In this document: one piece after another, positions 81 to 31,575 of the stretch
Position numbering within the stretch: the first letter of the stretch is position 1
How the letters are laid out: each line of letters opens with the position of its first letter
Origin: an uncultured Eubacterium sp.
GTDB lineage: Bacteria > Bacillota > Clostridia > Lachnospirales > Lachnospiraceae
Reading direction: 5' to 3'
Length of the DNA: 35,202 nucleotides
NCBI GenBank assembly: GCA_945648485.1
Contig: CALZFR010000003.1
Coordinates: forward strand, 1 to 35,202
Notes under the pieces: model-generated
Told to the model about the DNA's origin: nothing
The model's database searches: none
What the model saw: only the letters and a program-made list of their open reading frames with translations
Program-made: the position numbers and the translations under genes

Positions 81-857
81 TCAATAATCAACTGTTGGGG
101 AAGGGAACATTATTGCAGTAAGCTTACCCGCATATATTGGGTCCATCTCCTGCATAACAGCAGCCCTCTGCTTCGGTGTCATACACAGAAGAATTCTGGT
201 GACAACATAGGCATCTCCAGTCATTTCCTCCATAATAGATGCCGCGTTCTCTGGATCCATATTAGCATAGGTAGTTGCCCAGTCCTGAACCTGCTGCGAG
301 AACTGAAGTCTCTCGCATACTTCCTTGTATATCTTGGCAGCATTATCAGGATATATTTTATCATACCATGATTTGTATTCTGATATATCAGGAGCATTCT
401 CTGCAAAAACCACCTGATTATCAAAATCCTCTTTCTGCTTCAGAAATGTTTCCTGATTTTCCTCATATACCTTCAGCCTTGCCACCTCTGCCTGAAGCTG
501 TTGAACCTGTTCTGAAGAAGTATTACCACTATTCTGATATTCAGCTACCTCTTTCTCAAGTTCCTTAATCCTCTCAATAGCCTCAGCAAGACTTTTATAC
601 TTATATCCTGTCTCCTCCATCAGTTCTTCATCACTCATCTCAGGCAGAATATTGCTTACCACAGGAACATTCTTTAAGACAGGTCGGAGCATTGTACCTA
701 TCCCACCCACGTCCATCTTAATAAGCAGTGCAAATATAACAAGCCATATTATTATAATAAGAACAGCCAGCAGAAATCCCACAAAGCCTCCGCTCTTCTC
801 ATCATCATTATCTACATCAGCGCCTAATCCGCCAGCAGACTTTTCCTTCTTAGCCAT
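81..857 (-). CDS. Flagellar MotE/YlxF-like protein (TM + coiled coil + MgtE_N-like C-terminal domain)
   Basis: 258 aa ORF; N-terminal TM, central coiled coil, C-terminal 'ANMDPENAASIMEEMTGDAYVVTRILLCMTPKQRAAVMQEMDP' typical of MgtE_N-like domains; immediately downstream of fliJ. Confidence 0.8.
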   Translation of the reverse strand: MAKKEKSAGGLGADVDNDDEKSGGFVGFLLAVLIIIIWLVIFALLIKMDVGGIGTMLRPVLKNVPVVSNILPEMSDEELMEETGYKYKSLAEAIERIKELEKEVAEYQNSGNTSSEQVQQLQAEVARLKVYEENQETFLKQKEDFDNQVVFAENAPDISEYKSWYDKIYPDNAAKIYKEVCERLQFSQQVQDWATTYANMDPENAASIMEEMTGDAYVVTRILLCMTPKQRAAVMQEMDPIYAGKLTAIMFPSPTVDY

Positions 858-881
858 GCCAAAAGTCCCTTTCCTGTATTA

Positions 882-1337
882 TCAATCAGTATCTTTTCCT
901 TTATCATTATAAGTAAAACTTACTAATTGGTCAATTTCCTTCTTTTCCTCATTATTAAGTTCAGCCTTAAACTCTTCAAATGCTTTTTCTTTCAGTTTCT
1001 CATGAACCTTCCTGTCAGCCACAGCCTCATTAAGCTTTTCTCTGGCCTTGTCCAGATTTCTCTGGGCAGTCCTAAGCCTTACAGCCTGCTGTTTCATCAG
1101 TTCTTCCACAGCTTTAATCGAATCATTGCTTATCTTTAATCTGGCAACATCAATCTTGCCTGTTGAGTATTGCCTTATCTCATCCTGATATCCTCTTCTT
1201 CTGGCAATCAAAGCCCTCATCTTATCTTCTTCCGCCATAACTTTACTCATGGCAGCAGCAAATTCAGTCTTTGCCTGGGTTTCCAGCCGGATTTTAATAT
1301 CAAGGACATTCTGGAGACGATAAACAAATTTTGCCAT
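882..1337 (-). CDS. fliJ: Flagellar export chaperone FliJ
   Basis: 151 aa coiled-coil protein 'MAKFVYRLQNVLDIKIRLETQAKTEFA' in fliI-fliJ position. Confidence 0.85.
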   Translation of the reverse strand: MAKFVYRLQNVLDIKIRLETQAKTEFAAAMSKVMAEEDKMRALIARRRGYQDEIRQYSTGKIDVARLKISNDSIKAVEELMKQQAVRLRTAQRNLDKAREKLNEAVADRKVHEKLKEKAFEEFKAELNNEEKKEIDQLVSFTYNDKGKDTD

Positions 1338-1360
1338 CTAATGTCATCCCCCACACTCTG

Positions 1361-2686
1361 CTATTCGGATTCAGAATCGGCAAATATATTATTAAGCATT
1401 GCCATTTCTTCCTCAAATGTGAATTTTTCATCTGTCTGCTGCATAAGAAATTCATTAACAGCATCTATCTTAGAAATTGCATAATCAATATTCTTATTGC
1501 TGCCCTTCTTATAGGCTCCTATATTAATCAAATCTTCAGCTTCATTGTACGTAGCCAGGACATTCTTAAGCCGTCCAGCCACCTTCTTATGCTCTTTGGT
1601 AACAATCTGGCTCATGCATCTGGAAATACTCTGTAAAACATCAATGGCCGGATAATGATTTTTGTGTCCCAGTTTTCGTGACAGCATAATGTGTCCATCA
1701 AGAATACTTCGTGCAGTATCTGTTATAGGCTCATTAAAATCATCTCCATCTACAAGCACTGTATACAAACCTGTTATAGAACCCTTTTCCGCCATTCCGG
1801 CTCTCTCAAGCAGTTTTGGCATCTCACTGTAAACACTTGGCGGATATCCCCTGGTAACTGGTGGCTCACCAGATGCCAGTCCTATTTCTCTCTGAGCCAT
1901 AGAAAATCTGGTAAGGGAATCCATCATCAGAAGTACATCTTTACCCTGGTCACGGAAATATTCTGCAATAGCTGTGGCAGTCTTTGCAGCTTTATTTCTT
2001 ATAAGTGCCGGCTTGTCAGACGTTGCCACAACAAGAACACTTCTCTTCATTCCCTCTGGTCCTAAGTCTCTCTCTGCAAATTCCCTGACCTCACGTCCCC
2101 GCTCTCCGATAAGGGCTATTACATTAATGTCAGCCTTAGTATTACGTGCAAACATACCCATGAGTGTGCTCTTACCCACACCACTTCCTGCAAATATACC
2201 AATTCTCTGTCCCTTGCCAACTGTCAGAAGTCCATCAACAGCTTTAACGCCTAAAGGAAGGACCTCATTGATGATTACTCTGGACATAGGGTCTGGGGGA
2301 GCTGCCTCAACAGAATATTCTTCAGTAAGCCCCAGGTCTTCACCATCAACAGGATTGCCAAGACCATCAAGTGTATGTCCCAGAATCCCGAATCCAACCT
2401 TCACACCAAGAGGCTTACCTGTATTCTCCACAATACAGCCTGGACCAATTCCATCAACAGTATCAAAAGGCATCAGAAGAACCACTGACTCTCTGAACCC
2501 AACAACCTCTGCATTAACCACCTGGCTTCTGTCTGCCGAATATATTCTGCACAAATCATTAAGCTTTGCATCAGGTCCTACAGACTCAACTGTAAGTCCA
2601 ACAATCTTGGATACTTTTCCCAGCTTCTTATAAAATGTTTCCTGGGTTAATTCAAGATATTTATTAGTGTCAACAGCAAACATCAT
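1361..2686 (-). CDS. fliI: Flagellum-specific ATPase FliI
   Basis: 441 aa; Walker A 'GIFAGSGVGKSTLMGMFARN', 'LMMDSLTRFSMAQREIGLASGEPPVTRGYPPSVY'. Confidence 0.97.
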   Translation of the reverse strand: MMFAVDTNKYLELTQETFYKKLGKVSKIVGLTVESVGPDAKLNDLCRIYSADRSQVVNAEVVGFRESVVLLMPFDTVDGIGPGCIVENTGKPLGVKVGFGILGHTLDGLGNPVDGEDLGLTEEYSVEAAPPDPMSRVIINEVLPLGVKAVDGLLTVGKGQRIGIFAGSGVGKSTLMGMFARNTKADINVIALIGERGREVREFAERDLGPEGMKRSVLVVATSDKPALIRNKAAKTATAIAEYFRDQGKDVLLMMDSLTRFSMAQREIGLASGEPPVTRGYPPSVYSEMPKLLERAGMAEKGSITGLYTVLVDGDDFNEPITDTARSILDGHIMLSRKLGHKNHYPAIDVLQSISRCMSQIVTKEHKKVAGRLKNVLATYNEAEDLINIGAYKKGSNKNIDYAISKIDAVNEFLMQQTDEKFTFEEEMAMLNNIFADSESE

Positions 2687-2736
2687 AAGCCCCCTTATTG
2701 CCAGAAAATCTTCATATCATTCACTTAATAATTTAA

Positions 2737-3567
2737 TTAATTCATGCAGCTTAATTCTCTGATTCTTTTAATCAGATTATCAAGTTCTACATCAAGACTG
2801 CAGTTAAACACAGCACCATCTGACTCGATTACACACTGGTTCTGTGATAAAGACTGATCCTCAACAACATCAATATCAATATCCTTATTGACCCTGCAGC
2901 TGATTTTACCCTGATTAGACGAGACATAATCAAAATCGTCTGGTGAAACCCTAATTACATAATCCTGGTTCTTATCAGCTTCTGATAAACACCTGCTGAT
3001 AAGATGCATTATTATGTCATGATTATCCAGTGCCTCCGAAGAAATAACTGATTTAAACACCTCGGTAATAACCTGAACCAGCTCCGGTTCTACATTATTC
3101 TTCTTTTCAATATATTCAGATTCAAGCTGTTTAAACCGGCTCTGGTACTGGTTTTCCAGCTCATTTATATGAGTCTGGAGTTCCTGGTCTGCCTGGTTTA
3201 ATCCATCCTGATATCCCTGCTGTCTTGCCTGATTGAAAGATTCTTCAACCTGCTCATTGGCATCATTAATTATACTTTCAGCCTGTCTGTTTGCCTCTTC
3301 AATAATCTTTCCGGCTTCCTCTCTTGCATTCTGGAGAATTTCCTGGTTCTGGGCCGGATCAGAAACCTGTCCTGCATCTTCCTCCGAATCAGAAATCAGC
3401 TCTTCCACCACTTCTGCTGTCAAGCCATTGACAAACCCATCAGGGTCAGCCTTCTGTTTATCATTGGCATCCATGATATTCTGTAATTTTGTTTTAATAA
3501 GCTCATTATAATCAATAATCCGTTCCTCTTTACTGATTGCCGAGCCTCTTTTAAGCAGATTAGACAA
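2737..3567 (-). CDS. fliH: Flagellar assembly protein FliH
   Basis: 276 aa; Gln/Glu-rich coiled coil plus C-terminal FliH/YscL-like region; between fliG and fliI; overlaps fliG stop by 8 nt. Confidence 0.88.
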   Translation of the reverse strand: MSNLLKRGSAISKEERIIDYNELIKTKLQNIMDANDKQKADPDGFVNGLTAEVVEELISDSEEDAGQVSDPAQNQEILQNAREEAGKIIEEANRQAESIINDANEQVEESFNQARQQGYQDGLNQADQELQTHINELENQYQSRFKQLESEYIEKKNNVEPELVQVITEVFKSVISSEALDNHDIIMHLISRCLSEADKNQDYVIRVSPDDFDYVSSNQGKISCRVNKDIDIDVVEDQSLSQNQCVIESDGAVFNCSLDVELDNLIKRIRELSCMN

Positions 3568-4585
3568 TTATTTCGTCACCTCCGCCTCTTGCAATAACAA
3601 TTTCAGCTGAATCTTCCAGCTTTCTTATGATATTAACAATCTTCTGCTGTGCTTCTTCAACATCCTTCATACGAACAGGTCCCATGAATTCCATATCTTC
3701 CTTAATCATTACAGCAAGACGGCTTGAAAGATTATTAAGGATAATATTCTGAACCTCTTCTGTGGCACCCTTAAGGGCAAGGGCAAGGTCACTGTTATCA
3801 ACATCACGAAGCACTCTCTGGATTGCTCTGTCATCAAGAGAAAGAATATCCTCGAATACGAACATCTTCTTCCTGATTTCATCAGCAAGTTCTGGCTCTT
3901 CAACTTCCAGAGTCTCCATAATATGCTTCTCTGTTCCTCTGTCTACAGAATTCAGAATACTTACAATCGCATCTACACCACCCACAATAGTGTAATCCTG
4001 GTTAACAAGAGATGAAAGCTTACGTTCCAGCACCTTCTCAACCTGTTTGATTACATCTGGAGATGTTCTGTCCATCTGTGCTATTCTCTTGGCAACATCA
4101 GCCTGCTTCTCAGGTGGAAGTGATGATATAACAAGTGATGACTGGGATGGAGGAAGATACGACAAAATAAGAGCAATCGTCTGTGGATGCTCATCCTGAA
4201 TAAAGTTAAGAAGCTGGCTTGGGTCTGTCTTTCTGATAAACTCAAACGGTCTTACCTGAAGGCTGGCAGTTAATTTTCCAATAACAGTCTTTGCCTTCTC
4301 CTCTCCCAGAGCCTTTTCCAGAAGTTCCTTTGCATATCCAATACCACCTTCAGCAATATACTGCTGTGCGAGACATATCTCATAAAACTCATTGAGAACC
4401 ATCTCTTTTGTCTGTGGAGATACACTGCTTGTGTTAGCAATCTCCAGTGTAAGCTGCTCAATCTCTTCTTCCTTCAAATGTTTGAATATCTGGGCAGATT
4501 TCTCTGGTCCCAAAGCAATTAATAAAGTAGCAGCTTTTTCAACCCCATCCATCTCCTTGTCAGAGGATGCCATCTGTCTAGCCAT
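3560..4585 (-). CDS. fliG: Flagellar motor switch protein FliG
   Basis: 341 aa; 'DEHPQTIALILSYLPP', 'FEDILSLDDRAIQRVLRDVDNSDLALALKG', 'MEFMGPVRMKDVEEAQQKIV'. Confidence 0.98.
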   Translation of the reverse strand: MARQMASSDKEMDGVEKAATLLIALGPEKSAQIFKHLKEEEIEQLTLEIANTSSVSPQTKEMVLNEFYEICLAQQYIAEGGIGYAKELLEKALGEEKAKTVIGKLTASLQVRPFEFIRKTDPSQLLNFIQDEHPQTIALILSYLPPSQSSLVISSLPPEKQADVAKRIAQMDRTSPDVIKQVEKVLERKLSSLVNQDYTIVGGVDAIVSILNSVDRGTEKHIMETLEVEEPELADEIRKKMFVFEDILSLDDRAIQRVLRDVDNSDLALALKGATEEVQNIILNNLSSRLAVMIKEDMEFMGPVRMKDVEEAQQKIVNIIRKLEDSAEIVIARGGGDEIIV

Positions 4586-4602
4586 ATATAATCACGCCTT
4601 TC

Positions 4603-6216
4603 TTAGTCCCATCCGTCATTAAGCCAGTTGCGTAAAAGAAGCGCAACTGCCTCCGGATTCTCATCAACAAATTTTTCAATAGCTTTTCTCGTTTCAGATT
4701 TCTCCTGAACATCAATCTCTTCAACTGAAGGCTGCTTTTCTCTTGTAGTAGCAAGCATCTCCTCAACAGACAGTTCAGGCTCCTTCTCGCTTACAGTAAG
4801 CGGAACTGCACTTCTTATAACAACTAATGCCAGAAGTCCCAATATTACAAGGGCAAGGGCAATCTGAAGCCAGAATGTTACATTGCTTAATATATTTCCT
4901 GTAGGCTTATCCTGGAAATATGGACGCTGGTATGCAATTACAGAAATATTAGCTGTTGAAATTCCTGTACCTCTTGATATATTATCAATAACTCCCTGAT
5001 CCACTTCAAGGGTAGTTGTTTCACCATTCTGGGCCTTAAACTCATCCCAGCTTACATTATCCAGATATCCCAGCTTCTGGCACTCTTCTTCTGAATATAT
5101 CATATTCTTAATAAATGTAACCGCAATACTTGAAGAATCCCTGACGATTTCACCTGGTTCTTTAACTGTTGTAGTTACAATAGAGTTAGGCAGATATGAG
5201 TATTTCTCCACCTCATATGTAGAAGTGCTTCCATTGCCTGTATTAATATTATACGTAGTATCGTCATTATTAGAGGTTGTTCCTGGTGTACCACTGGCAC
5301 CGGAAGTTCCCTCGGATACCTCATGGTATGATTCACCAAATATGGCCTGTTCACCGCCCTGGGTTGAATACTCTGTAGCAATTGTAGTTACTGCATCCCA
5401 GTCCATATCCATATTAAGCGTAAAATACGCATCATCATACAATCCAGTAGCAAGCCATCCATCTTTAATGCTGTTCTTTATTGTGGCTTCAATTTCATTC
5501 TTATACTTCATCTTACCACTGTAGCTTACACCTGAACTATTGGAAGCATTACTTGGTCCGGAAAACAGTGTATTACCACTTGTATCTACAATTGTAACAC
5601 TATTCGTCGTACTGTTTCCCACTGCATTGGCAAGAAAAACAGCAATAGACTCTGCAGCATCACTATTCATAGCCCTGGTTGTATCAAGAACCACGCTCAC
5701 GGAATTCTCAGATGTAGTTGCATAGAAGGATGATGTGGTATCATTAAGCTTAACAGTTACAGAAGCACTCTTGATGCCATCCATACTCTCCAGATCATCC
5801 TTAAACTTATTCTCAAGATAATGGGCATGCATCTTAGTTCTGTCCGATTCAGTAGTTGTGAAACTTGTATTCATTGAATCCTCAAATGAATATCCTGCTG
5901 GCCTTATATCTTCAGATGCTATAAGCATCTTTGAATTAGTCAAATCACTCTTCTTTACTTTTACAGTAAGTGAGCCGTCATCTACCACATAAGGGATATT
6001 ATTGCTGGTAAGCAGTGATGTAACACTGTTCATCTCCTTATAATCCTCACAGGTTGTCAGTACATTATATACCGGTCTTGAAGCCACAAAGGCGATAATA
6101 CCAACAGCAATAAGGACAGCAGCCACAGAGCTGACAATTACAACTCTCTGCTTGGCAGTCCATCCCTTCCATATATCTATTATTCTGTTAATAACTGCTC
6201 TAAAACGCTCAGCCAT
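4603..6216 (-). CDS. fliF: Flagellar MS-ring protein FliF
   Basis: 537 aa; two TM segments flanking YscJ/FliF domains; C-terminal FliG-binding tail. Confidence 0.96.
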   Translation of the reverse strand: MAERFRAVINRIIDIWKGWTAKQRVVIVSSVAAVLIAVGIIAFVASRPVYNVLTTCEDYKEMNSVTSLLTSNNIPYVVDDGSLTVKVKKSDLTNSKMLIASEDIRPAGYSFEDSMNTSFTTTESDRTKMHAHYLENKFKDDLESMDGIKSASVTVKLNDTTSSFYATTSENSVSVVLDTTRAMNSDAAESIAVFLANAVGNSTTNSVTIVDTSGNTLFSGPSNASNSSGVSYSGKMKYKNEIEATIKNSIKDGWLATGLYDDAYFTLNMDMDWDAVTTIATEYSTQGGEQAIFGESYHEVSEGTSGASGTPGTTSNNDDTTYNINTGNGSTSTYEVEKYSYLPNSIVTTTVKEPGEIVRDSSSIAVTFIKNMIYSEEECQKLGYLDNVSWDEFKAQNGETTTLEVDQGVIDNISRGTGISTANISVIAYQRPYFQDKPTGNILSNVTFWLQIALALVILGLLALVVIRSAVPLTVSEKEPELSVEEMLATTREKQPSVEEIDVQEKSETRKAIEKFVDENPEAVALLLRNWLNDGWD

Positions 6217-6236
6217 TGTTATGTAAACTCCTTAAA

Positions 6237-6575
6237 TTAAATCTGCATGTTCATAATCTGATTATACGCTTCAAGTGCTTTGTCTCTTACAGCTACAGTA
6301 AATTCCAATGCAATATTAGCCTGTTGCTGGTATACCCCAAGCTCATGTGTGTTAGTCAGATTACCCAGGGCAAAATCAATCTCAGCCTGCTGTGCCTGCT
6401 GTATATAATCATTAGTGCTGGAAAGAAGCCCTGACACTGAATTAAATACTGAGTCAAATGTCTTATCCCCATCTGTTCCATCTGGGACATTAAGTGTAGC
6501 TGACTGCTTCATGGCATCAGTAACCTTATTAATATAATCTGCTCCCAGAGTGTTAACTGCCTGTGTAATATTCAT
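6237..6575 (-). CDS. fliE: Flagellar hook-basal body protein FliE
   Basis: 112 aa; C-terminal 'ALEFTVAVRDKALEAYNQIMNMQI' signature. Confidence 0.95.
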   Translation of the reverse strand: MNITQAVNTLGADYINKVTDAMKQSATLNVPDGTDGDKTFDSVFNSVSGLLSSTNDYIQQAQQAEIDFALGNLTNTHELGVYQQQANIALEFTVAVRDKALEAYNQIMNMQI

Positions 6576-6622
6576 ACTTTACCCCATTCCTTATACTACT
6601 TATCACGATATACATGTATCAA

Positions 6623-7105
6623 TTAAACTGAACCAATAGTAAGTCCCTTCTGTGCCATGGACTTGCTGGCATTAAATGCTGATATATTAGCCTCATATGA
6701 CCTTGATGCATCAATTAAATCAGTCATCTCCTGCACAATATTAACGTTAGGATATGTTACATATCCATTCTCATCTGCATCAGGGTGTGATGGATCATAC
6801 ACAAGATTCATATCTGTGGAATCGTCCTCATAAACAGATGTAACCTTAACTCCATCTCCCAGTCTTCCTCCGCTGGCATTATGTAGAATACTTGCAAAGG
6901 AAGAACCTGCCGCACTTGCACCCTTAACGTATGTAGCAGGAGATAATGTCTTCTCTGTGAAAACTACTGCTTTTCTCACATATGGTGTGCCATCCGATGT
7001 CCTTGTTGTATTGGCGTTGGCAATATTCTCAGAAATAACATCTGTTCTTAACTGCTGTGCAGTCATACCTGATGCACTAATATTAAAAGATGTGAACATT
7101 GACAT
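6623..7105 (-). CDS. flgC: Flagellar basal-body rod protein FlgC
   Basis: 160 aa; 'FNISASGMTAQQLRTDVISENIANANTTRT...YEANISAFNASKSMAQKGLTIG'. Confidence 0.96.
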   Translation of the reverse strand: MSMFTSFNISASGMTAQQLRTDVISENIANANTTRTSDGTPYVRKAVVFTEKTLSPATYVKGASAAGSSFASILHNASGGRLGDGVKVTSVYEDDSTDMNLVYDPSHPDADENGYVTYPNVNIVQEMTDLIDASRSYEANISAFNASKSMAQKGLTIGSV

Positions 7106-7145
7106 AATGTTTTCCTCCTTAACATCAAAAAATCAAATTAATATG

Positions 7146-7538
7146 TTACTTTATAACCGCCTTGAATCTTGAAAACTCATTATTCATACTGTCAATCAGT
7201 GCATTATAGTTAATCTGCTCTGCAGCCAGTTCAACATTCTCTGTTGAAAGATCAACATTATTACCGTCAAGTCTGTATGAAAGAGCTGTATTATCTGTAT
7301 ATGTCCTGTATGTAACTGTTGATGTATCAACACTGTTTATCTTCTGTGTAAGAGTTGCCCTTGGTCTTCCAGCCTGTTCAATGGCAGAATTAAGGTAAGT
7401 CCTAAATTCAATATCCTGTCTCTTATAATTAGGCGTGTCCACATTGGCAATATTATTGGTAAGCACCTCTTCTCTTGCCCAGCTGGCATCAGCTGCAGTC
7501 TTTAAAACGTTAACATATCCAAATATTCCTGAGCCCAT
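7146..7538 (-). CDS. flgB: Flagellar basal-body rod protein FlgB
   Basis: 130 aa; 'REEVLTNNIANVDTPNYKRQDIEF'. Confidence 0.96.
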   Translation of the reverse strand: MGSGIFGYVNVLKTAADASWAREEVLTNNIANVDTPNYKRQDIEFRTYLNSAIEQAGRPRATLTQKINSVDTSTVTYRTYTDNTALSYRLDGNNVDLSTENVELAAEQINYNALIDSMNNEFSRFKAVIK

Positions 7539-23024: not shown

Positions 23025-23717
23025 TCAATTCAGAATCTCCTGATTGGTTTCCGCATATCCAAGGATGATATTCAGATTTCCATTTCTCATTCTAAGGTCG
23101 TCAATAAAAGCCTTTTCGTCAGTACCTGATTTCATGAAAACATTGTATGTAAGTTCAAACATCGTTCCCATATTAGTTGTTTTTACTTTTCTCAAATCAA
23201 ATGAGCTTAAGTATTTATCAAACAAATCATTAAATGCGCTGGTGTAATTCAAAGTTTCCGGAATTGTAATCTTAAGCTGTCTTGCCCCATCCTTTTTCTC
23301 TCCAAAATGAACTGCAGAAAGAACCATCATTACAATAACCATAATTGCCACAAAAACACAGGCAAAAGTAATATATCCAAGTCCACATGCCAGGCCTGCC
23401 GCCATGGAGAAGAATACAACAGCTATATCTCTTGCATTACCAGGAGCACTTCTGAATCTTACCAGGGCAAAGGCGCCTGCCATGGAAAATGCCCTGGCAA
23501 CATTACTGCCAATAAGGAGAATTACTGCTGCTACAATTGCAGGAAGGATAACAAGACCAATAATAAAATTTCTGCCGTATCCATCTTTTCTACAAATATA
23601 CATGTATACCACACCAATGACTAATCCTAATATAACTGCCACACATATTCCTAACATTGATGAGCCTATGCTGATGGCATTATCTGTTGCTGAAGTTGTA
23701 AATATTGATTCAAACAT
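23025..23717 (-). CDS. DUF4956 multi-pass membrane protein
   Basis: 'GSNVARAFSMAGAFALVRFRSAPGNARDIAVVFFSMAAGLACGLGY'; ATG at 23717 preceded by GGAAGAGGAATT; overlaps the upstream VTC gene by about 52 nt. Confidence 0.88.
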   Translation of the reverse strand: MFESIFTTSATDNAISIGSSMLGICVAVILGLVIGVVYMYICRKDGYGRNFIIGLVILPAIVAAVILLIGSNVARAFSMAGAFALVRFRSAPGNARDIAVVFFSMAAGLACGLGYITFACVFVAIMVIVMMVLSAVHFGEKKDGARQLKITIPETLNYTSAFNDLFDKYLSSFDLRKVKTTNMGTMFELTYNVFMKSGTDEKAFIDDLRMRNGNLNIILGYAETNQEILN

Positions 23718-24481
23718 AATTCCTCTTCCTTTCTTTCCCTTATTGTTCCGCTGGTATTTCCAGCTGACATATATTTTTTGTACTCTGTTCCATATTTTGA
23801 AAACGATGCCGGATAAATATTTAATCCTGATATAATTTTTGCAAACCACATTGGCACTGCCCCTGAAACCTTAATTTCCATAAGATAAGAATCTGCCGGC
23901 AGCAGCTGTTCACCAAAGCTTCCATCTTCCAGCCTTACATCTTTTCTTCTCGTTGTTATATTAGTATCAAAAGTCACCCTGAAGTCTCCGTCATCTTTCT
24001 CAAAATACGCAATTCTGTCATAGGATATATAAACCTTTGGAACTATTTTATAGTGATTTTTAAAGAAATCTATTTCCCTTAACACCTGTCTGTTTATCTC
24101 CGGATAATCATCCATAATACTGTCCATACTTATCTTTCCATCCATATATCCATAAGCATCCTCCAGTTTCATGGATGTTCTTCTTTTATTAACCACTCCA
24201 TTATACTTTTTCTTAATTTCCACAAAAACACTTTCATTTAAGCCAGGTACTCCATAGCTTCGTACCCTGAGTTTTTCTTTATATACAGGCTTTTCAATAG
24301 ACGCACTTATCAATCTGTCATCCCAGGTATCATAATATATATTGCATATTTTATAAGATTCGCCATTCTCATTGTATCTGTCTAACACCATATGATTTTT
24401 CATGGCAGCAATAATTGAATCATACTGCTGTCTGGTAATCAAATATTTTTTCTCATATCTGTTAAACACTTCAATTGCCAT
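23666..24481 (-). CDS. VTC-domain (polyphosphate polymerase / triphosphate tunnel metalloenzyme superfamily) protein
   Basis: 271 aa; 'NRYEKKYLITRQQY', 'EKLRVRSYG', 'VFVEIKKKYNGVVNKRR', 'YDRIAYF', 'VTFDTNITTRR', 'LMEIKVSG'. Confidence 0.9.
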   Translation of the reverse strand: MAIEVFNRYEKKYLITRQQYDSIIAAMKNHMVLDRYNENGESYKICNIYYDTWDDRLISASIEKPVYKEKLRVRSYGVPGLNESVFVEIKKKYNGVVNKRRTSMKLEDAYGYMDGKISMDSIMDDYPEINRQVLREIDFFKNHYKIVPKVYISYDRIAYFEKDDGDFRVTFDTNITTRRKDVRLEDGSFGEQLLPADSYLMEIKVSGAVPMWFAKIISGLNIYPASFSKYGTEYKKYMSAGNTSGTIRERKEEELCLNQYLQLQQQIMPSA

Positions 24482-24551: not shown

Positions 24552-24589
24552 TAAAAAAAGTGACCTTTTGAAAACTATCAAAAGGTCAC
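24552..24589 (-). terminator. Rho-independent terminator after the MscS gene
   Basis: GTGACCTTTTGA / TCAAAAGGTCAC 12-bp perfect stem (24560-24571/24578-24589), T7 on minus strand. Confidence 0.92.
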
Positions 24590-24629
24590 CTGTGTATTTC
24601 CAGATATTAATTACAGTCCATAGTGAGAA

Positions 24630-25571
24630 TCAGGACATTGTCTCTTCATTCTTAAGGTGTACATCCAGCTTATTATATGGGATTTCAATTCCATTCCTGT
24701 CAAATTCCTGTTTGAATTTCTCAAGAAAGATGAACCTTGTATCCCAGTATGTATCCTGGCTTACCCAGCATCTTGTCTCCAGTGTAACACAGGAATCATC
24801 AAGAGATTTAACTACAACATCAATCCCCTTGTCTTTCATGACTGATGGATATTCTGAAATAATATCACGGAGTATCTCTTTGGCTTTAGTAACGTCACTT
24901 CCATACGAAATTCCCACATTAATATCCAGCCTTCTTATACCCTCAGCGCCAACATTAACGATGTTAGAATTTGACAGAGCGCCATTAGGCATCATAACAA
25001 CCTTGTTATCAATTGTCCTTAACTTAGTATAAAGTATGTCAACAGACACTACATTACCTTCACAGCTGTTGGAAATAATATAATCCCCTACCTTAAATGG
25101 CTTAAATATAAGAATAAGAATTCCTCCAGCCATATTAGAAAGACTACCCTGCAAAGACATACTTAAAGCCAGGGCTGCTGAACCAAATACTGCAATAAGA
25201 GATGCTGTCTGGAAACCTAAAATATCAAGAATTACCAGTATTACAACGGCGTATACTCCGAACTTTGCAAAGGAGCATATGAACTTAATAACTCCCACAT
25301 CGAATCCGGCTCTCTCCATTCCCCTGTTAATTATCTTTAAAAGCCATTTTGTAAGATACTTTGACAACTTCCATATAATAATGGCAATAACTATATCAAT
25401 AATCTTGCCCAGGGCTCCATTAATAAAATTGGTAAAAAGCTGGTTTAAATTCTCGGTAGTAAAAAACGCTCTTGCTTCCTCTGCTTTCGCAGCAACATCA
25501 GAAGTTGCTGGAACATCCAGGGCAAAGCTGGCAGGAACCGGCACTCCGCCCATCCTTAAAAAACTCATCAC
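24630..25571 (-). CDS. MscS-family small-conductance mechanosensitive channel
   Basis: 313 aa; 'AVFGSAALALSMSLQGSLSNMAGGILILIFKPFKVGDYI', 'NKVVMMPNGALSNSNIVN'. Confidence 0.95.
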   Translation of the reverse strand: MMSFLRMGGVPVPASFALDVPATSDVAAKAEEARAFFTTENLNQLFTNFINGALGKIIDIVIAIIIWKLSKYLTKWLLKIINRGMERAGFDVGVIKFICSFAKFGVYAVVILVILDILGFQTASLIAVFGSAALALSMSLQGSLSNMAGGILILIFKPFKVGDYIISNSCEGNVVSVDILYTKLRTIDNKVVMMPNGALSNSNIVNVGAEGIRRLDINVGISYGSDVTKAKEILRDIISEYPSVMKDKGIDVVVKSLDDSCVTLETRCWVSQDTYWDTRFIFLEKFKQEFDRNGIEIPYNKLDVHLKNEETMS

Positions 25572-25580
25572 ATCACCTTC

Positions 25581-27863
25581 CTATATCCCTTTTCCTCTTA
25601 ATGCAGCCAGCTTCTTTTTTGCCTCTGCCTCAATCTGCTGACACTTCAGTTTGGCTGCCTCCGCCTGTTTAGTGGCATACTCGCTTGCTTTTGCTGCTTC
25701 TTTAGCCGCCTTTTGTGCTATATCTCTTGCTTCTGCAGCCGCTCTGGCAGTTTCCTTCGCCTCTGTTTCAATTATCTTGGCATCCAGTGCTTTTTTCTTT
25801 GCTTCCTCAAGAGCAATCTTTGCCTCTTTCATTATGGCATTTTCTTCAATTTCAATTTCTGTGAAGGGCTCAAATGTAAAGAAGCTCACGCTTAATCCTG
25901 GAAGGTCTGCTTTTATAGAATCATCAAAGCCATCTGATTCCTGATCAGTTGATTTGTATGTCTTTGCAGTTGTCATATCTGTATATTTTCCAGCCTGGGG
26001 CACTCCAAGAACATAACCCTTTCTATCAACAGGAGTAAAATTAGCGATGGCCATAATCATTGTACCATCTGCTGATTTTCTGTAGAACGAAAGAATTGTT
26101 TCCACTGCCGCCGAATCATTAATCCATCCGAAGCCCTCTGCTTTATTATCCAGCTGATACAGAGGTTCATTACCGGAATATATACCGTTAAGCCATGTCA
26201 CATAATCCTCAACGCCCTCGCATTCCCTGAAATTAACCAGCTTCTTTCCAGGATATGCATACATATATGCCAGGGCATTCTTAACATGGCACATTTTCTT
26301 ATCTTCTGGAACAGGTGCTGTATCCCTAAGAAGTCCTTTTTCCCATCCATAGCCATCCCTGGAGAACTCAAGTATGAAATCTTCACTGTACTGGTATAGC
26401 ATACTATGGCTTAATTTATCATATTTCCCTTTCCTGAACAGTGGATCTGTGTAGTAAAAATCCATGAAATCCTTTTTCCATCCATCATTCCACTTATAGT
26501 CAAAACCAAGGCCTTCCCTCTTAATCTCTCCGGTAACCATGTCCCAGATGCTGCTTTCCTCTGCAATAAGAAGAACCTTCTTATCCTGCTTGTCAGCAAT
26601 CTTTCTCAATCCTTTTATGAATTCCACTCCAGCCAGGTTTTCTTTACTGCCGTACATGTTAAAACTCCACTCCCCTGGATTCCTTCCGTAATCCAGATAC
26701 AGCATTGAAGCCACTTCCTTAAGTCGCAGTCCATCAGCATGGAACTCCTTAATCCAGTAAACTGCTGTCGAATTAAGATATGATCTGACCTCTTTGCAGT
26801 CAAAATTATAGAGTGCACATTTTACATCAGGATGATTACTTAATGATGACGAGCCAGAATCCAGCAAATGGGTTCCGTCATAATATATAAAACTCCCCAG
26901 TCCTTCTTCCATATAAGCCATATTACAATCAACAATTACGCCAATTCCCTGATTGTGAAACTCGTTAATTATACCCTTAAGCCTGTCACTTCCCAGCTTT
27001 CTGTCAACGCAGAAATTACCTGCTGCAATACCATTTTCCTTATCAATTGTTGATGTAAGCCCTGATAACTCAATGTAATTGAATCCCATATTCTTCACAG
27101 AACGGACTATATCGTCACTGATTAATTCATCGATTCCAAGTTCACAGATAGCCAATGGTTTGTCCTTATCTGTATCAGGATTCCATTCCTCATCATTCCA
27201 TATAAAATCACAAATCAGGTCATTATCTCCAATATAATAAGGGTCTGCTTTCCTTACAATCTGCCCATTGCTAAGCTTTATTTCATAACAATAATCAGAG
27301 GCATCCTCCAGACCAGGAATAAATAATTCAAATATACCACTCTCATCATTCCTGTTCATCTGGAAACTTCTTCCATCCCAGTCATTAAAAGTTCCTACAA
27401 CGCTGACTCTTCTTGCATTAGGGGCATACACAGCAAAACGTACTCCACTGATGCCATTAACCTCAATCTGTCTTGCTCCCATAAACTTGTAGGAATCCTC
27501 AGAAGCTCCTGATAAAAACTTCCTGATATCTTCCTTCTTTAATGTTGTACCAAAGCAGTATGGGTCAATATACTCAGTACTTCTGCCTTTAACATCCTCA
27601 ACCCTTACAGTATATTCTACCTTTTTCTTTCCAGGAATAAGCACAGCAAAATAACCAGCTTCATCCACCTTGTCACATGTGTATTTCCTGTTAACTCCAG
27701 ATACGCTCACCTTTACATCCACAGCATCTGGTCTGAAAATCTGGATTAGAAAACCTTCTTTAACAAGATGTCCGCCAAGAAGTTCCCCCGGCTTATCACT
27801 TTCACAGTATGTAATACCCTCTATCTCAGGCCAGTTCATAAGATTATATACTTTACCATTCAT
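25581..27863 (-). CDS. GlgB-like (GH13/CBM48) protein with degenerate catalytic motifs; probable pseudoenzyme with helical C-terminal tail
   Basis: 760 aa; CBM48 'VRFAVYAPNARRVSVVGTFNDWDGRSFQM'; GlgB signatures 'VASMLYLDYGRNPGEW', 'LLIAEESSIWDMVT', 'GLGFDYKWNDGW'; nucleophile Asp replaced by Lys; about 85-aa Ala/Lys/Glu tail. Confidence 0.9.
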   Translation of the reverse strand: MNGKVYNLMNWPEIEGITYCESDKPGELLGGHLVKEGFLIQIFRPDAVDVKVSVSGVNRKYTCDKVDEAGYFAVLIPGKKKVEYTVRVEDVKGRSTEYIDPYCFGTTLKKEDIRKFLSGASEDSYKFMGARQIEVNGISGVRFAVYAPNARRVSVVGTFNDWDGRSFQMNRNDESGIFELFIPGLEDASDYCYEIKLSNGQIVRKADPYYIGDNDLICDFIWNDEEWNPDTDKDKPLAICELGIDELISDDIVRSVKNMGFNYIELSGLTSTIDKENGIAAGNFCVDRKLGSDRLKGIINEFHNQGIGVIVDCNMAYMEEGLGSFIYYDGTHLLDSGSSSLSNHPDVKCALYNFDCKEVRSYLNSTAVYWIKEFHADGLRLKEVASMLYLDYGRNPGEWSFNMYGSKENLAGVEFIKGLRKIADKQDKKVLLIAEESSIWDMVTGEIKREGLGFDYKWNDGWKKDFMDFYYTDPLFRKGKYDKLSHSMLYQYSEDFILEFSRDGYGWEKGLLRDTAPVPEDKKMCHVKNALAYMYAYPGKKLVNFRECEGVEDYVTWLNGIYSGNEPLYQLDNKAEGFGWINDSAAVETILSFYRKSADGTMIMAIANFTPVDRKGYVLGVPQAGKYTDMTTAKTYKSTDQESDGFDDSIKADLPGLSVSFFTFEPFTEIEIEENAIMKEAKIALEEAKKKALDAKIIETEAKETARAAAEARDIAQKAAKEAAKASEYATKQAEAAKLKCQQIEAEAKKKLAALRGKGI

Positions 27864-27886: not shown

Positions 27887-28732
27887 TTACATATTAATAT
27901 CAGCCCATGTCTTAAAAAGTCCTGTCCATGCATTAACTTCCGGTTGATAATGTTTTCCGTCTATTGTATCTGTCTCTTTCGTTCCCAAACCAATACCATG
28001 GTTACCATTAGGAAATATATGCAGCTCAAATGGTACATTATTCTGTCTTAACGCAGCTGCAAAAAGGAGCGTATTCTCCACTGGAACAGAACCATCTGAA
28101 AATGTATGCCATAAAAATGTCTTTGGCGTACCTGCATTAACTCTCTTAACAAGATTCACACTGGCAAGCAGTTCGTCATGCCTGTCACCCAGCAGTCTTT
28201 CAAAAGAAGCTTTATGGGCATGTTCACCGCTGGTAAGAACAGAGTACCCCAACAGCATTGCATCAGGTTTCACTCTGTCAGAATCCAGTCCAGCATACGA
28301 AAGAAATGGCTTTAATTCTTCCTGGTCATACATAGTTCCAAGAGAGGCCGCCACATGTCCACCTGCTGAGAATCCTGCCACAATTATTTTATCAGGGTCT
28401 ACATCCCACTCTCCTGCATGAGTTCTTACGTAATCCATTGTGTATGCAATCTCATACAACTGACATGGAAATTCATTAGGGCAAAGGCTGTATCTCAAAA
28501 CCACCGCATTCATTCCCATATTCAGCATAGTTATTGCCATAGCCTCTCCCTCCCTTGGAGAGTGATGATGATATCCACCACCAGGACATATTATAACAAG
28601 AGGTCTTCTGAAAGGCAGCTGGTCCTTAGGAAAGATATCTTTGATATATGTAGTAATTGTTGCTTTGGAATCATCGTGATTAATTCCCAATTTTTCATAG
28701 TCAATATCAATATTAATAACTTCGTGTAACAT
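27887..28732 (-). CDS. Alpha/beta-hydrolase, BD-FAE/acetylesterase-like
   Basis: 'LVIICPGGGYHHHSPREGEAMA', nucleophile 'GFSAGGHVAAS', 'SDGSVPVENT', 'NGNHGIG'; ATG at 28732 with GGAGG 6-7 nt upstream. Confidence 0.9.
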   Translation of the reverse strand: MLHEVINIDIDYEKLGINHDDSKATITTYIKDIFPKDQLPFRRPLVIICPGGGYHHHSPREGEAMAITMLNMGMNAVVLRYSLCPNEFPCQLYEIAYTMDYVRTHAGEWDVDPDKIIVAGFSAGGHVAASLGTMYDQEELKPFLSYAGLDSDRVKPDAMLLGYSVLTSGEHAHKASFERLLGDRHDELLASVNLVKRVNAGTPKTFLWHTFSDGSVPVENTLLFAAALRQNNVPFELHIFPNGNHGIGLGTKETDTIDGKHYQPEVNAWTGLFKTWADINM

Positions 28733-28767
28733 TGTTTTCCTCCATTTTACATTAATCAAACTTAATA

Positions 28768-28797
28768 ATGGCAAAGTCTTTAGACAGACTTTGCCAT
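28768..28797 (-). terminator. Hairpin/possible terminator after the DUF1015 gene
   Basis: ATGGCAAAGTCT / AGACTTTGCCAT 12-bp perfect stem; poor T-tract on minus strand. Confidence 0.55.
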
Positions 28798-30060: not shown

Positions 30061-31575
30061 CTATGCATTTAACTGTGCAGTAAGATTCTTCAATTCAGTA
30101 GAAATTGCAACTACCTCACCAACAACCTGGCTGTTTTTCTCACTAATTGAATATGTGTCATTAGCGTGAGCAGAAACCTCCTCAGAAATTGCTGAGATTG
30201 TTGAAATACTGTCAATAATCTCGCTGTTGGCTGAAGAAAGATGCTCAATTATTTCTGATAAGTACCTTGAATTATCTTCAATATCAGCTGAATTTCTTTC
30301 AATATTCTTAAAGCTTTCCTCTGTCTTCGCTGCAGAATCATGCTGTCCGTCAATATCATTAACCATCTGTGTTGTTACATCAACAACCTTATTAATTGCC
30401 TCAGACACACTGCCAATCATATCAGTAATCTTAACAGTTGCGTCCTGTGTTTCATTAGCCATCTTGGAAATCTCTGAAGCAACAACCGCAAAACCCTTTC
30501 CAGCTTCACCGGCTCTTGCAGCCTCAATACTGGCATTAAGTGCAAGAAGGCTGGTCTGGGATGTAATATTAGTAATAATATCAACAACAGAATTCATATT
30601 AGCCATAATAGCTTTCAAATCACTAAGCTGTGCCGTAACAGTCTTTCCAGATTCAACAGAATGGTTAACCTGCTGCATGAGGGTATTAAGGTTCTCATTA
30701 CCAGCAAAAACTGCATCTTTGGCACTACTAACATTACTTATAATCTGGTCTGCACCATTCTTAACATCATTAACTCTCTTCTGGATATTCTCAGTCATCT
30801 CAAGCTGTTTCTGTACTGCCTCTGCTGTATCTCCTGAACCTTCTGTAACATCCTGCATCGCCTCTCTTGTTGCATTAACAGCCTCATCAAGGTCACTGAT
30901 TTTAGAACTGATAGTGTCTATTCTTGCACTGATCTGTTCTGAAATATTCATAGTCTTATTAAGAAGATTTTCTGTTTTACTGCCCTGTTCCTCAATCTGA
31001 AGGACCTTTTCTTTCTTGTTAATCTCAAGTGCTCTTGATGTGTATATTGAGTAACATGCAATAATAACCATAACAAGCACCTGAATTTCCAATCCGGCGA
31101 GAGAATCAACTGTATACAGACCTAACTTGAAAAACCACGCTGCCTGAATACAATTAACAATAACAACACCGACATTAACAGGAATAGAATATTTAAAATC
31201 ATTATATACTGAAATTGCAATAATCATCGGAATTGCATATACGAAGGCAAACAAATTGTTAGTTGTAAACATAATAAATATGTAAAATACTGCAAATCCA
31301 TATCCGGCACAATGCTTTACAGCTGTTGCATCTTTCTTCTTACTATAAAAAATCCATTCAAGAACTGGTGCGGAAATACCAATTAAAATTGTTAAAAGAA
31401 CATAACTTATAGTTCTTGCACCTTTGATAAACTCCACAAAATATGCAATAGAAATAACAGCAATTTCAATAGTATGACATAAAGCAACTACTTTATTACA
31501 TCTTGCAACCTCACGGTCATATGCTGCCACATTTTTTCCTTCTTCGTTGTTATTTTTTTCTTTCATGTTCTTCAC
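30061..31575 (-). CDS. Methyl-accepting chemotaxis protein with multi-TM N-terminal sensor
   Basis: 504 aa; about 6 hydrophobic segments, no obvious HAMP; hairpin tip 'ITSQTSLLALNASIEAARAGEAGKGFAVVASEISKMANET'. Confidence 0.95.
   Translation of the reverse strand: MKNMKEKNNNEEGKNVAAYDREVARCNKVVALCHTIEIAVISIAYFVEFIKGARTISYVLLTILIGISAPVLEWIFYSKKKDATAVKHCAGYGFAVFYIFIMFTTNNLFAFVYAIPMIIAISVYNDFKYSIPVNVGVVIVNCIQAAWFFKLGLYTVDSLAGLEIQVLVMVIIACYSIYTSRALEINKKEKVLQIEEQGSKTENLLNKTMNISEQISARIDTISSKISDLDEAVNATREAMQDVTEGSGDTAEAVQKQLEMTENIQKRVNDVKNGADQIISNVSSAKDAVFAGNENLNTLMQQVNHSVESGKTVTAQLSDLKAIMANMNSVVDIITNITSQTSLLALNASIEAARAGEAGKGFAVVASEISKMANETQDATVKITDMIGSVSEAINKVVDVTTQMVNDIDGQHDSAAKTEESFKNIERNSADIEDNSRYLSEIIEHLSSANSEIIDSISTISAISEEVSAHANDTYSISEKNSQVVGEVVAISTELKNLTAQLNA

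Follow-up and report, generated by a model that had tools for sequence, protein, structure and literature searches.

The question raised by this locus is why a gut bacterium maintains a second protein of the glycogen branching enzyme (GlgB) family in which the catalytic nucleophile has been replaced by lysine. The locus lies in a window of 35,202 nucleotides, the whole stretch of DNA analysed here, from a genome that apparently belongs to the genus Lachnospira. The open reading frame at 25581-27863 on the minus strand encodes a GlgB-like putative pseudoenzyme of 760 aa, here called GlgB2, as identified by ORF, profile and alignment evidence. The first-pass annotation had described its 760-codon frame as intact, and the frame is indeed open from end to end without internal stop.

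The domain structure of GlgB2 was defined by profile searches and alignment. GlgB_N (aa 12-112; 27528-27830, minus strand) matched Pfam PF22019 over aa 12-102 (E=1.3e-26), and its end was set at aa 112 by alignment. CBM48 (aa 129-209; 27237-27479, minus strand), which had been claimed to be preserved, was confirmed by PF02922 (E=5.2e-26) and by alignment, with Trp162 at the position of the site-IV Trp159 of E. coli GlgB. The C-terminal all-beta domain (aa 580-663; 25875-26126, minus strand) matched PF02806 (Alpha-amylase_C) and starts with Trp580 at the position of the E. coli site-VI Trp628. The Pfam catalytic-domain model gave no match on GlgB2, and the eroded GH13 barrel (aa 249-542; 26238-27119, minus strand) was located using phmmer against solved GlgB structures, which were also the best solved relatives of the protein (Cyanothece 5gr1, E=7e-95). 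The presence of GlgB_N, CBM48 and the C domain, and an extended similarity to solved GlgB, place GlgB2 in the GlgB family by descent. It shares with the GH13_9 enzymes of E. coli, Cyanothece and M. tuberculosis the order GlgB_N-CBM48-barrel-C domain and many invariant residues; the YLDYG...W..N.YG..EN segment, W628 and the aromatic CBM48 site are among these. Against the NCBIfam GlgB equivalog models it scored below all cut-offs (426.6 vs 741, 403.5 vs 463.95 and 398.6 vs 577 bits). An AlphaFold2 model with two-sequence input had a pLDDT of 35; we infer from the sequence that the fold is retained. GlgB2 differs from GlgB by an added Ala-heptad coiled-coil tail (aa 673-757; 25593-25847, minus strand) with a period of 3.5 (p about 0.0005 against shuffles), in which the orthologs have an invariant Ala every 7 residues. 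The idea that this tail is a novelty coupled to inactivation was rejected, since intact GlgB2 in other genera also carry charged coiled or Lys-rich tails.

The catalytic residues were compared by alignment with E. coli GlgB. At the signature positions D335-H340-R403-D405-E458-H525-D526, GlgB2 has D-Y-R-K-E-R-D; D335 (D312), R403 (R380), the acid/base E458 (E435) and the stabiliser D526 (D503) are kept, while H340 is changed to Y317, the nucleophile D405 to K382, H525 to R502 and E527 to G504. The Asp-Glu-Asp triad of a functional GH13_9 enzyme is thus broken at Lys382, with Glu435 and Asp503 retained, and the His residues of motifs I and IV are both missing. Replacement of the nucleophile by a Lys codon AAG had been noticed before and is confirmed; the codon occupies 26720-26718 of the minus strand, one base away from the position first given (26721-26719). 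Motif I reads DCNMAYM (aa 312-318; 26910-26930, minus strand), with Tyr317 at the His340 position, and motif IV reads SRDGYGWEK (aa 501-509; 26337-26363, minus strand). Other first-pass statements on this region also held: the quoted branching-enzyme motifs were all found, motif I has lost its His and motif IV its His and Glu, the acid/base Glu and motif-IV Asp remain, and the GSWGYQ and FMGNEF segments are both gone in comparison with known GlgB. Compared with the Cyanothece enzyme, the protein lacks a stretch of about 40 residues lying between CBM48 and the barrel, and another of about 24 that follows the PGKK motif (FMGNEFAQ..EW). The segment YLDYGRNPGEWSFNMYGSKENLAGVEF (26619-26699; P0001 aa 389-415), directly after the lost nucleophile, is among the most conserved in both intact and eroded GlgB2.

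The retaining chemistry of GH13 requires the Asp nucleophile. The window protein has lost the nucleophile, the motif-I His and most of the shell around the active site, and is therefore predicted to be unable to perform the GH13 double-displacement reaction. A weak branching activity independent of the classical nucleophile could be imagined from the retained acid/base Glu and stabiliser Asp, but besides the nucleophile the protein has lost GSWGYQ, the motif-I His and the post-PGKK segment, and we regard such activity as very improbable.

The window genome is a MAG (78% complete, 222 contigs) and GlgB2 evolves faster than its canonical paralog, both of which could point to a decaying pseudogene or an assembly error. 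This explanation is hardly credible and was rejected, because the frames are open in the genus genomes, dN/dS is near 0.08, and Lys is shared by three genomes, whose AAG or AAA codons lie two or more substitutions away from any codon for Asp. The dN/dS of GlgB2 (NG86) was 0.079 in the closest species pair and ranged from 0.058 to 0.103 across five further close pairs, bearing out the expectation of a ratio below 1, while canonical GlgB gave 0.029-0.079 in the same pairs. In divergent pairs, where dS is near-saturated, the GlgB2 values were 0.14-0.21. By domain, the window pair gave 0.03-0.13, purifying in every domain tested. GlgB2 is clearly under purifying selection, but is less constrained than canonical GlgB. 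The active paralog is present in the same genome: the second, canonical glgB that had been suggested as a check was found intact, as a 651-codon frame, on contig C95. Canonical GlgB is a separate gene in nearly all of the 22 genus genomes (G006 has a weak fragment only) and was intact in 10/10 examples examined, and glgA was over its cut-off in 20/22. A plasmid search returned ordinary GlgB matches only.

A contig scan with the single window protein returned one close relative only, and a GlgB2 ortholog was found in 22/22 genus genomes searched, with 35-95% identity to the window protein. Each of the 21 readable genus orthologs has Tyr or Phe instead of the motif-I His. The nucleophile position has Lys in three of them (G000, G018 and G019), Ser in two (G015 and G021), Thr in two (G005 and G007) and Asp in 14. 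Five of the 21 have Asp or Gln in place of the acid/base Glu, and most have an eroded motif IV. For Lys, G000 and G018 use AAG, whereas G019 uses AAA. Orthologs carrying Asp had been named as evidence that the substitution is a private mutation; such orthologs exist (14/21), but the change is not private, since Lys is common to three genomes, Ser, Thr and, in a nested genome, Pro occur elsewhere, and every ortholog is without the motif-I His. Lys itself is conserved in three genomes, and the rest have Ser, Thr or Asp. Eleven genus members retain both the Asp nucleophile and the Glu acid/base, eight of them also with the motif-IV Asp, so some residual activity may persist in these members, as judged from their residues.

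Several changes are common to the clade. Among its 22 sequences, V337 is changed to N in 21/22, H340 to Y or F in 22/22 and T461 to S in 22/22, and N at 337, S at 461 and the Ala-heptad tail are conserved features gained in the genus. Changes of motif I in step, together with the acid/base Glu retained in the window protein, would be expected if the genus GlgB2 were a repurposed enzyme or a small-ligand sensor with a new pocket. We consider this unlikely, because the pocket erodes in a lineage-specific manner (nucleophile K, S, P or T; acid/base E, D or Q), unlike a conserved new active site.

The columns that erode were compared with those that stay. Of the columns invariant in active GlgB2, the 22 clade sequences retained 39% in the active-site motifs vs 67% elsewhere, with 93% in GlgB_N and 77% in CBM48. 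In total, 192 columns are invariant in intact GlgB2, and those least retained in 61 altered sequences belong almost all to the active-site shell (A406, W298, H530, M483, M486, V529, T461, H340, E577 and Q301); as the seven signature residues defined the altered set, only their neighbouring residues provide an independent test. The nucleophile is still Asp in 22/61 altered sequences. In E. coli GlgB, W159 and W628 make contact with glucan (PMC10254366). The W628 position (surface site VI) has Trp in 61/61 altered sequences and the W159 position (CBM48, site IV) is aromatic in 60/61, while W586 (site I) is mostly lost, among other surface sites. Ranked by retention among the invariant columns, W628 is at the 91st percentile and W159 at the 57th; they are not exceptional, and their retention could reflect glucan binding or a structural role. 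From the retained surface-site aromatics we infer that GlgB2 may bind glucan.

To place GlgB2 in the family, about one genome per genus was sampled from 298 Lachnospiraceae genera, and the long GlgB paralog was widespread. The window protein branches with GlgB2 sequences, apart from canonical GlgB. In a tree of 61 sequences, the genus forms one group with G254, a genome of another genus with Pro at the nucleophile position, and near this group lie the intact G105, the eroded G319 and the partly eroded G296. The pseudoenzyme thus descends from an intact GlgB2. The GlgB2 of G319 (L107 / L091) has motif I deleted in-frame and a Thr nucleophile; in its genus (g85), G105 has an intact GlgB2 and no GlgB2 was found in G320.

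Outside the genus, 162 GlgB2-like loci were collected, 122 with the intact signature and 40 altered; sampling followed a ranking by similarity to the window family, and the intact loci include some of canonical type, so 40/162 is not an unbiased frequency. The altered nucleophiles were S, N, T, A, P, C, I, V, H, E, R or G, while E. coli GlgB and all canonical GlgB have Asp. With the motif columns excluded from the tree, parsimony requires no fewer than 8 changes for the altered state and no fewer than 12 for the nucleophile; it gives no direction, and FastTree with long branches tends to unite eroded sequences, so these numbers are probably lower bounds. Five g190 species (L263-L265, L119-L123) share the pattern DFRSKHE, with Ser as nucleophile and Lys as acid/base, and two pairs in that genus gave dN/dS of 0.038 and 0.080, values of purifying selection. 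A separate canonical GlgB was present in 38/38 altered genomes re-searched, 56-76% identical to that of the window genome (two fragmentary). GlgB2 has thus lost catalytic residues many times in related bacteria, and its role on glycogen is probably non-enzymatic.

The gene order serC-serA-DUF1015-hydrolase-GlgB2-mscS is co-linear across the genus, and by position the window locus falls in the GlgB2 orthologous group of Lachnospiraceae. An alpha/beta-hydrolase (BD-FAE / Abhydrolase_3; 27887-28774, minus strand), identified by domain match and conserved in the genus, is immediately upstream of GlgB2; its true start is probably downstream of the listed TTG. A BD-FAE-like hydrolase occupies the place between DUF1015 and GlgB2 in the genus and in the genomes closest to it (G254, G105, G319 and G296). 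The eight further genera in the synteny comparison, whose GlgB2 is intact, lack it at this position. An MscS-family mechanosensitive channel (24630-25571, minus strand; Pfam MS_channel) starts 9 bases past the GlgB2 stop. A terminator-like hairpin of 14 pairs with a T run follows mscS (24558-24591, minus strand) and a second one precedes the hydrolase (28797-28768), in a consensus scan that found 6 against 4.3 expected. The hairpins at both ends suggest that hydrolase, GlgB2 and MscS form one unit. The first hairpin is two-way and separates mscS from a conserved downstream pair encoding a VTC-domain protein and a DUF4956 protein (23025-24481). Between serA and DUF1015 lies a methyl-accepting chemotaxis protein (30061-31575) found in some genus members only. 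At 81-7538 a flagellar cluster was recognised by eye (fliJ-, fliI-, fliH-, fliG-, fliF-, fliE-, flgC- and flgB-like), adjoining a CodY-like regulator and a topA-like gene.

The neighbouring channel offers another explanation. The animal proteins 4F2hc and rBAT are GH13-fold pseudoenzymes serving membrane proteins, the amino-acid transporters, and GlgB2 might support or regulate MscS in the same manner, although 4F2hc and rBAT differ from it in being membrane-anchored and without CBM48. In the first synteny survey mscS directly followed GlgB2 in 32/32 loci (20 genus, 12 other genera), most of them behind serC-serA-DUF1015. It also lies directly behind GlgB2 in 92/162 non-Lachnospira loci (72 intact, 20 altered, in 20 genera), and the hairpin after mscS agrees with a shared unit. 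Gene order alone does not demonstrate an interaction, and GlgB2 also occurs without the channel gene: no recognisable mscS was present at 19 altered loci for which 900 or more downstream bases were read, and none was found behind the g190 loci L263-L265 and L119-L123. An obligatory GlgB2-MscS pair was thus rejected, and a role of GlgB2 as channel partner appears quite unlikely.

We favour, as a fairly probable explanation, that GlgB2 is a maintained non-catalytic pseudoenzyme acting as a glucan-binding scaffold or partner for glycogen enzymes, similar to plant ISA2 or PTST. The first-pass proposal of a maintained non-catalytic GlgB-like protein is strongly supported by the genus-wide conservation, the dN/dS of 0.06-0.10 in close pairs, the fixed synteny and the intact second GlgB; it did not include the coiled-coil tail, the GlgB2-mscS locus or the recurrent catalytic loss in the family. 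GlgB2 is a branching-enzyme paralog derived from a catalytically intact form that persists in most Lachnospiraceae. The genus GlgB2 has kept the N-terminal, CBM48 and C-terminal beta domains and the coiled-coil tail and has lost the catalytic machinery; it would bind alpha-glucan chains via CBM48 and C-domain surface sites, oligomerise through the tail, and serve as scaffold, targeting or regulatory partner of active glycogen enzymes, most simply canonical GlgB or GlgA.

Similar proteins are known from other systems. Plant ISA2 is a noncatalytic isoamylase and GH13 paralog complexed with ISA1, it affects alpha-glucan structure noncatalytically, and why it stays selected is not understood (PMC12510319). 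Like GlgB2, it has lost catalytic residues including the nucleophile, and has been kept by selection alongside an active paralog; however, it is a paralog of a debranching enzyme and has been noncatalytic since the Chloroplastida ancestor, whereas GlgB2 is a branching-enzyme paralog that was repeatedly inactivated. Plant PTST proteins are noncatalytic and combine a coiled coil with CBM48 (PMC6243121), as GlgB2 does, but have no described GH13 barrel and a separate origin. The GlgA-GlgB fusions of some Chlamydiae contain an inactive branching-enzyme domain (PMC11046441), a bacterial GlgB domain without activity as proposed for GlgB2, but this domain is part of a gene fusion with a defective GlgC-GlgA pathway, whereas GlgB2 is a free-standing paralog beside an intact GlgB. 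Literature searches in open-access papers returned no description of a GlgB pseudoenzyme.

In conclusion, an ISA2-type event, the retention of a noncatalytic paralog, would recur in the bacterial family Lachnospiraceae. For the family as a whole, we hold tentatively, at somewhat less than even chances, that selection maintains GlgB2 mainly for a non-catalytic function (a glucan-binding scaffold, possibly mscS-linked); branching chemistry would then be dispensable and was lost independently many times. GlgB2-like proteins probably carry branching-enzyme annotations, and models of gut-bacterial glycogen should leave them out when branching enzymes are counted. Since one orthologous gene exists in intact, partly eroded and fully eroded form, often at one locus, the non-catalytic role of a glucan enzyme becomes directly testable, and, if this reading is true, GlgB2 would provide naturally replicated cases of an enzyme turning into a scaffold in bacteria.
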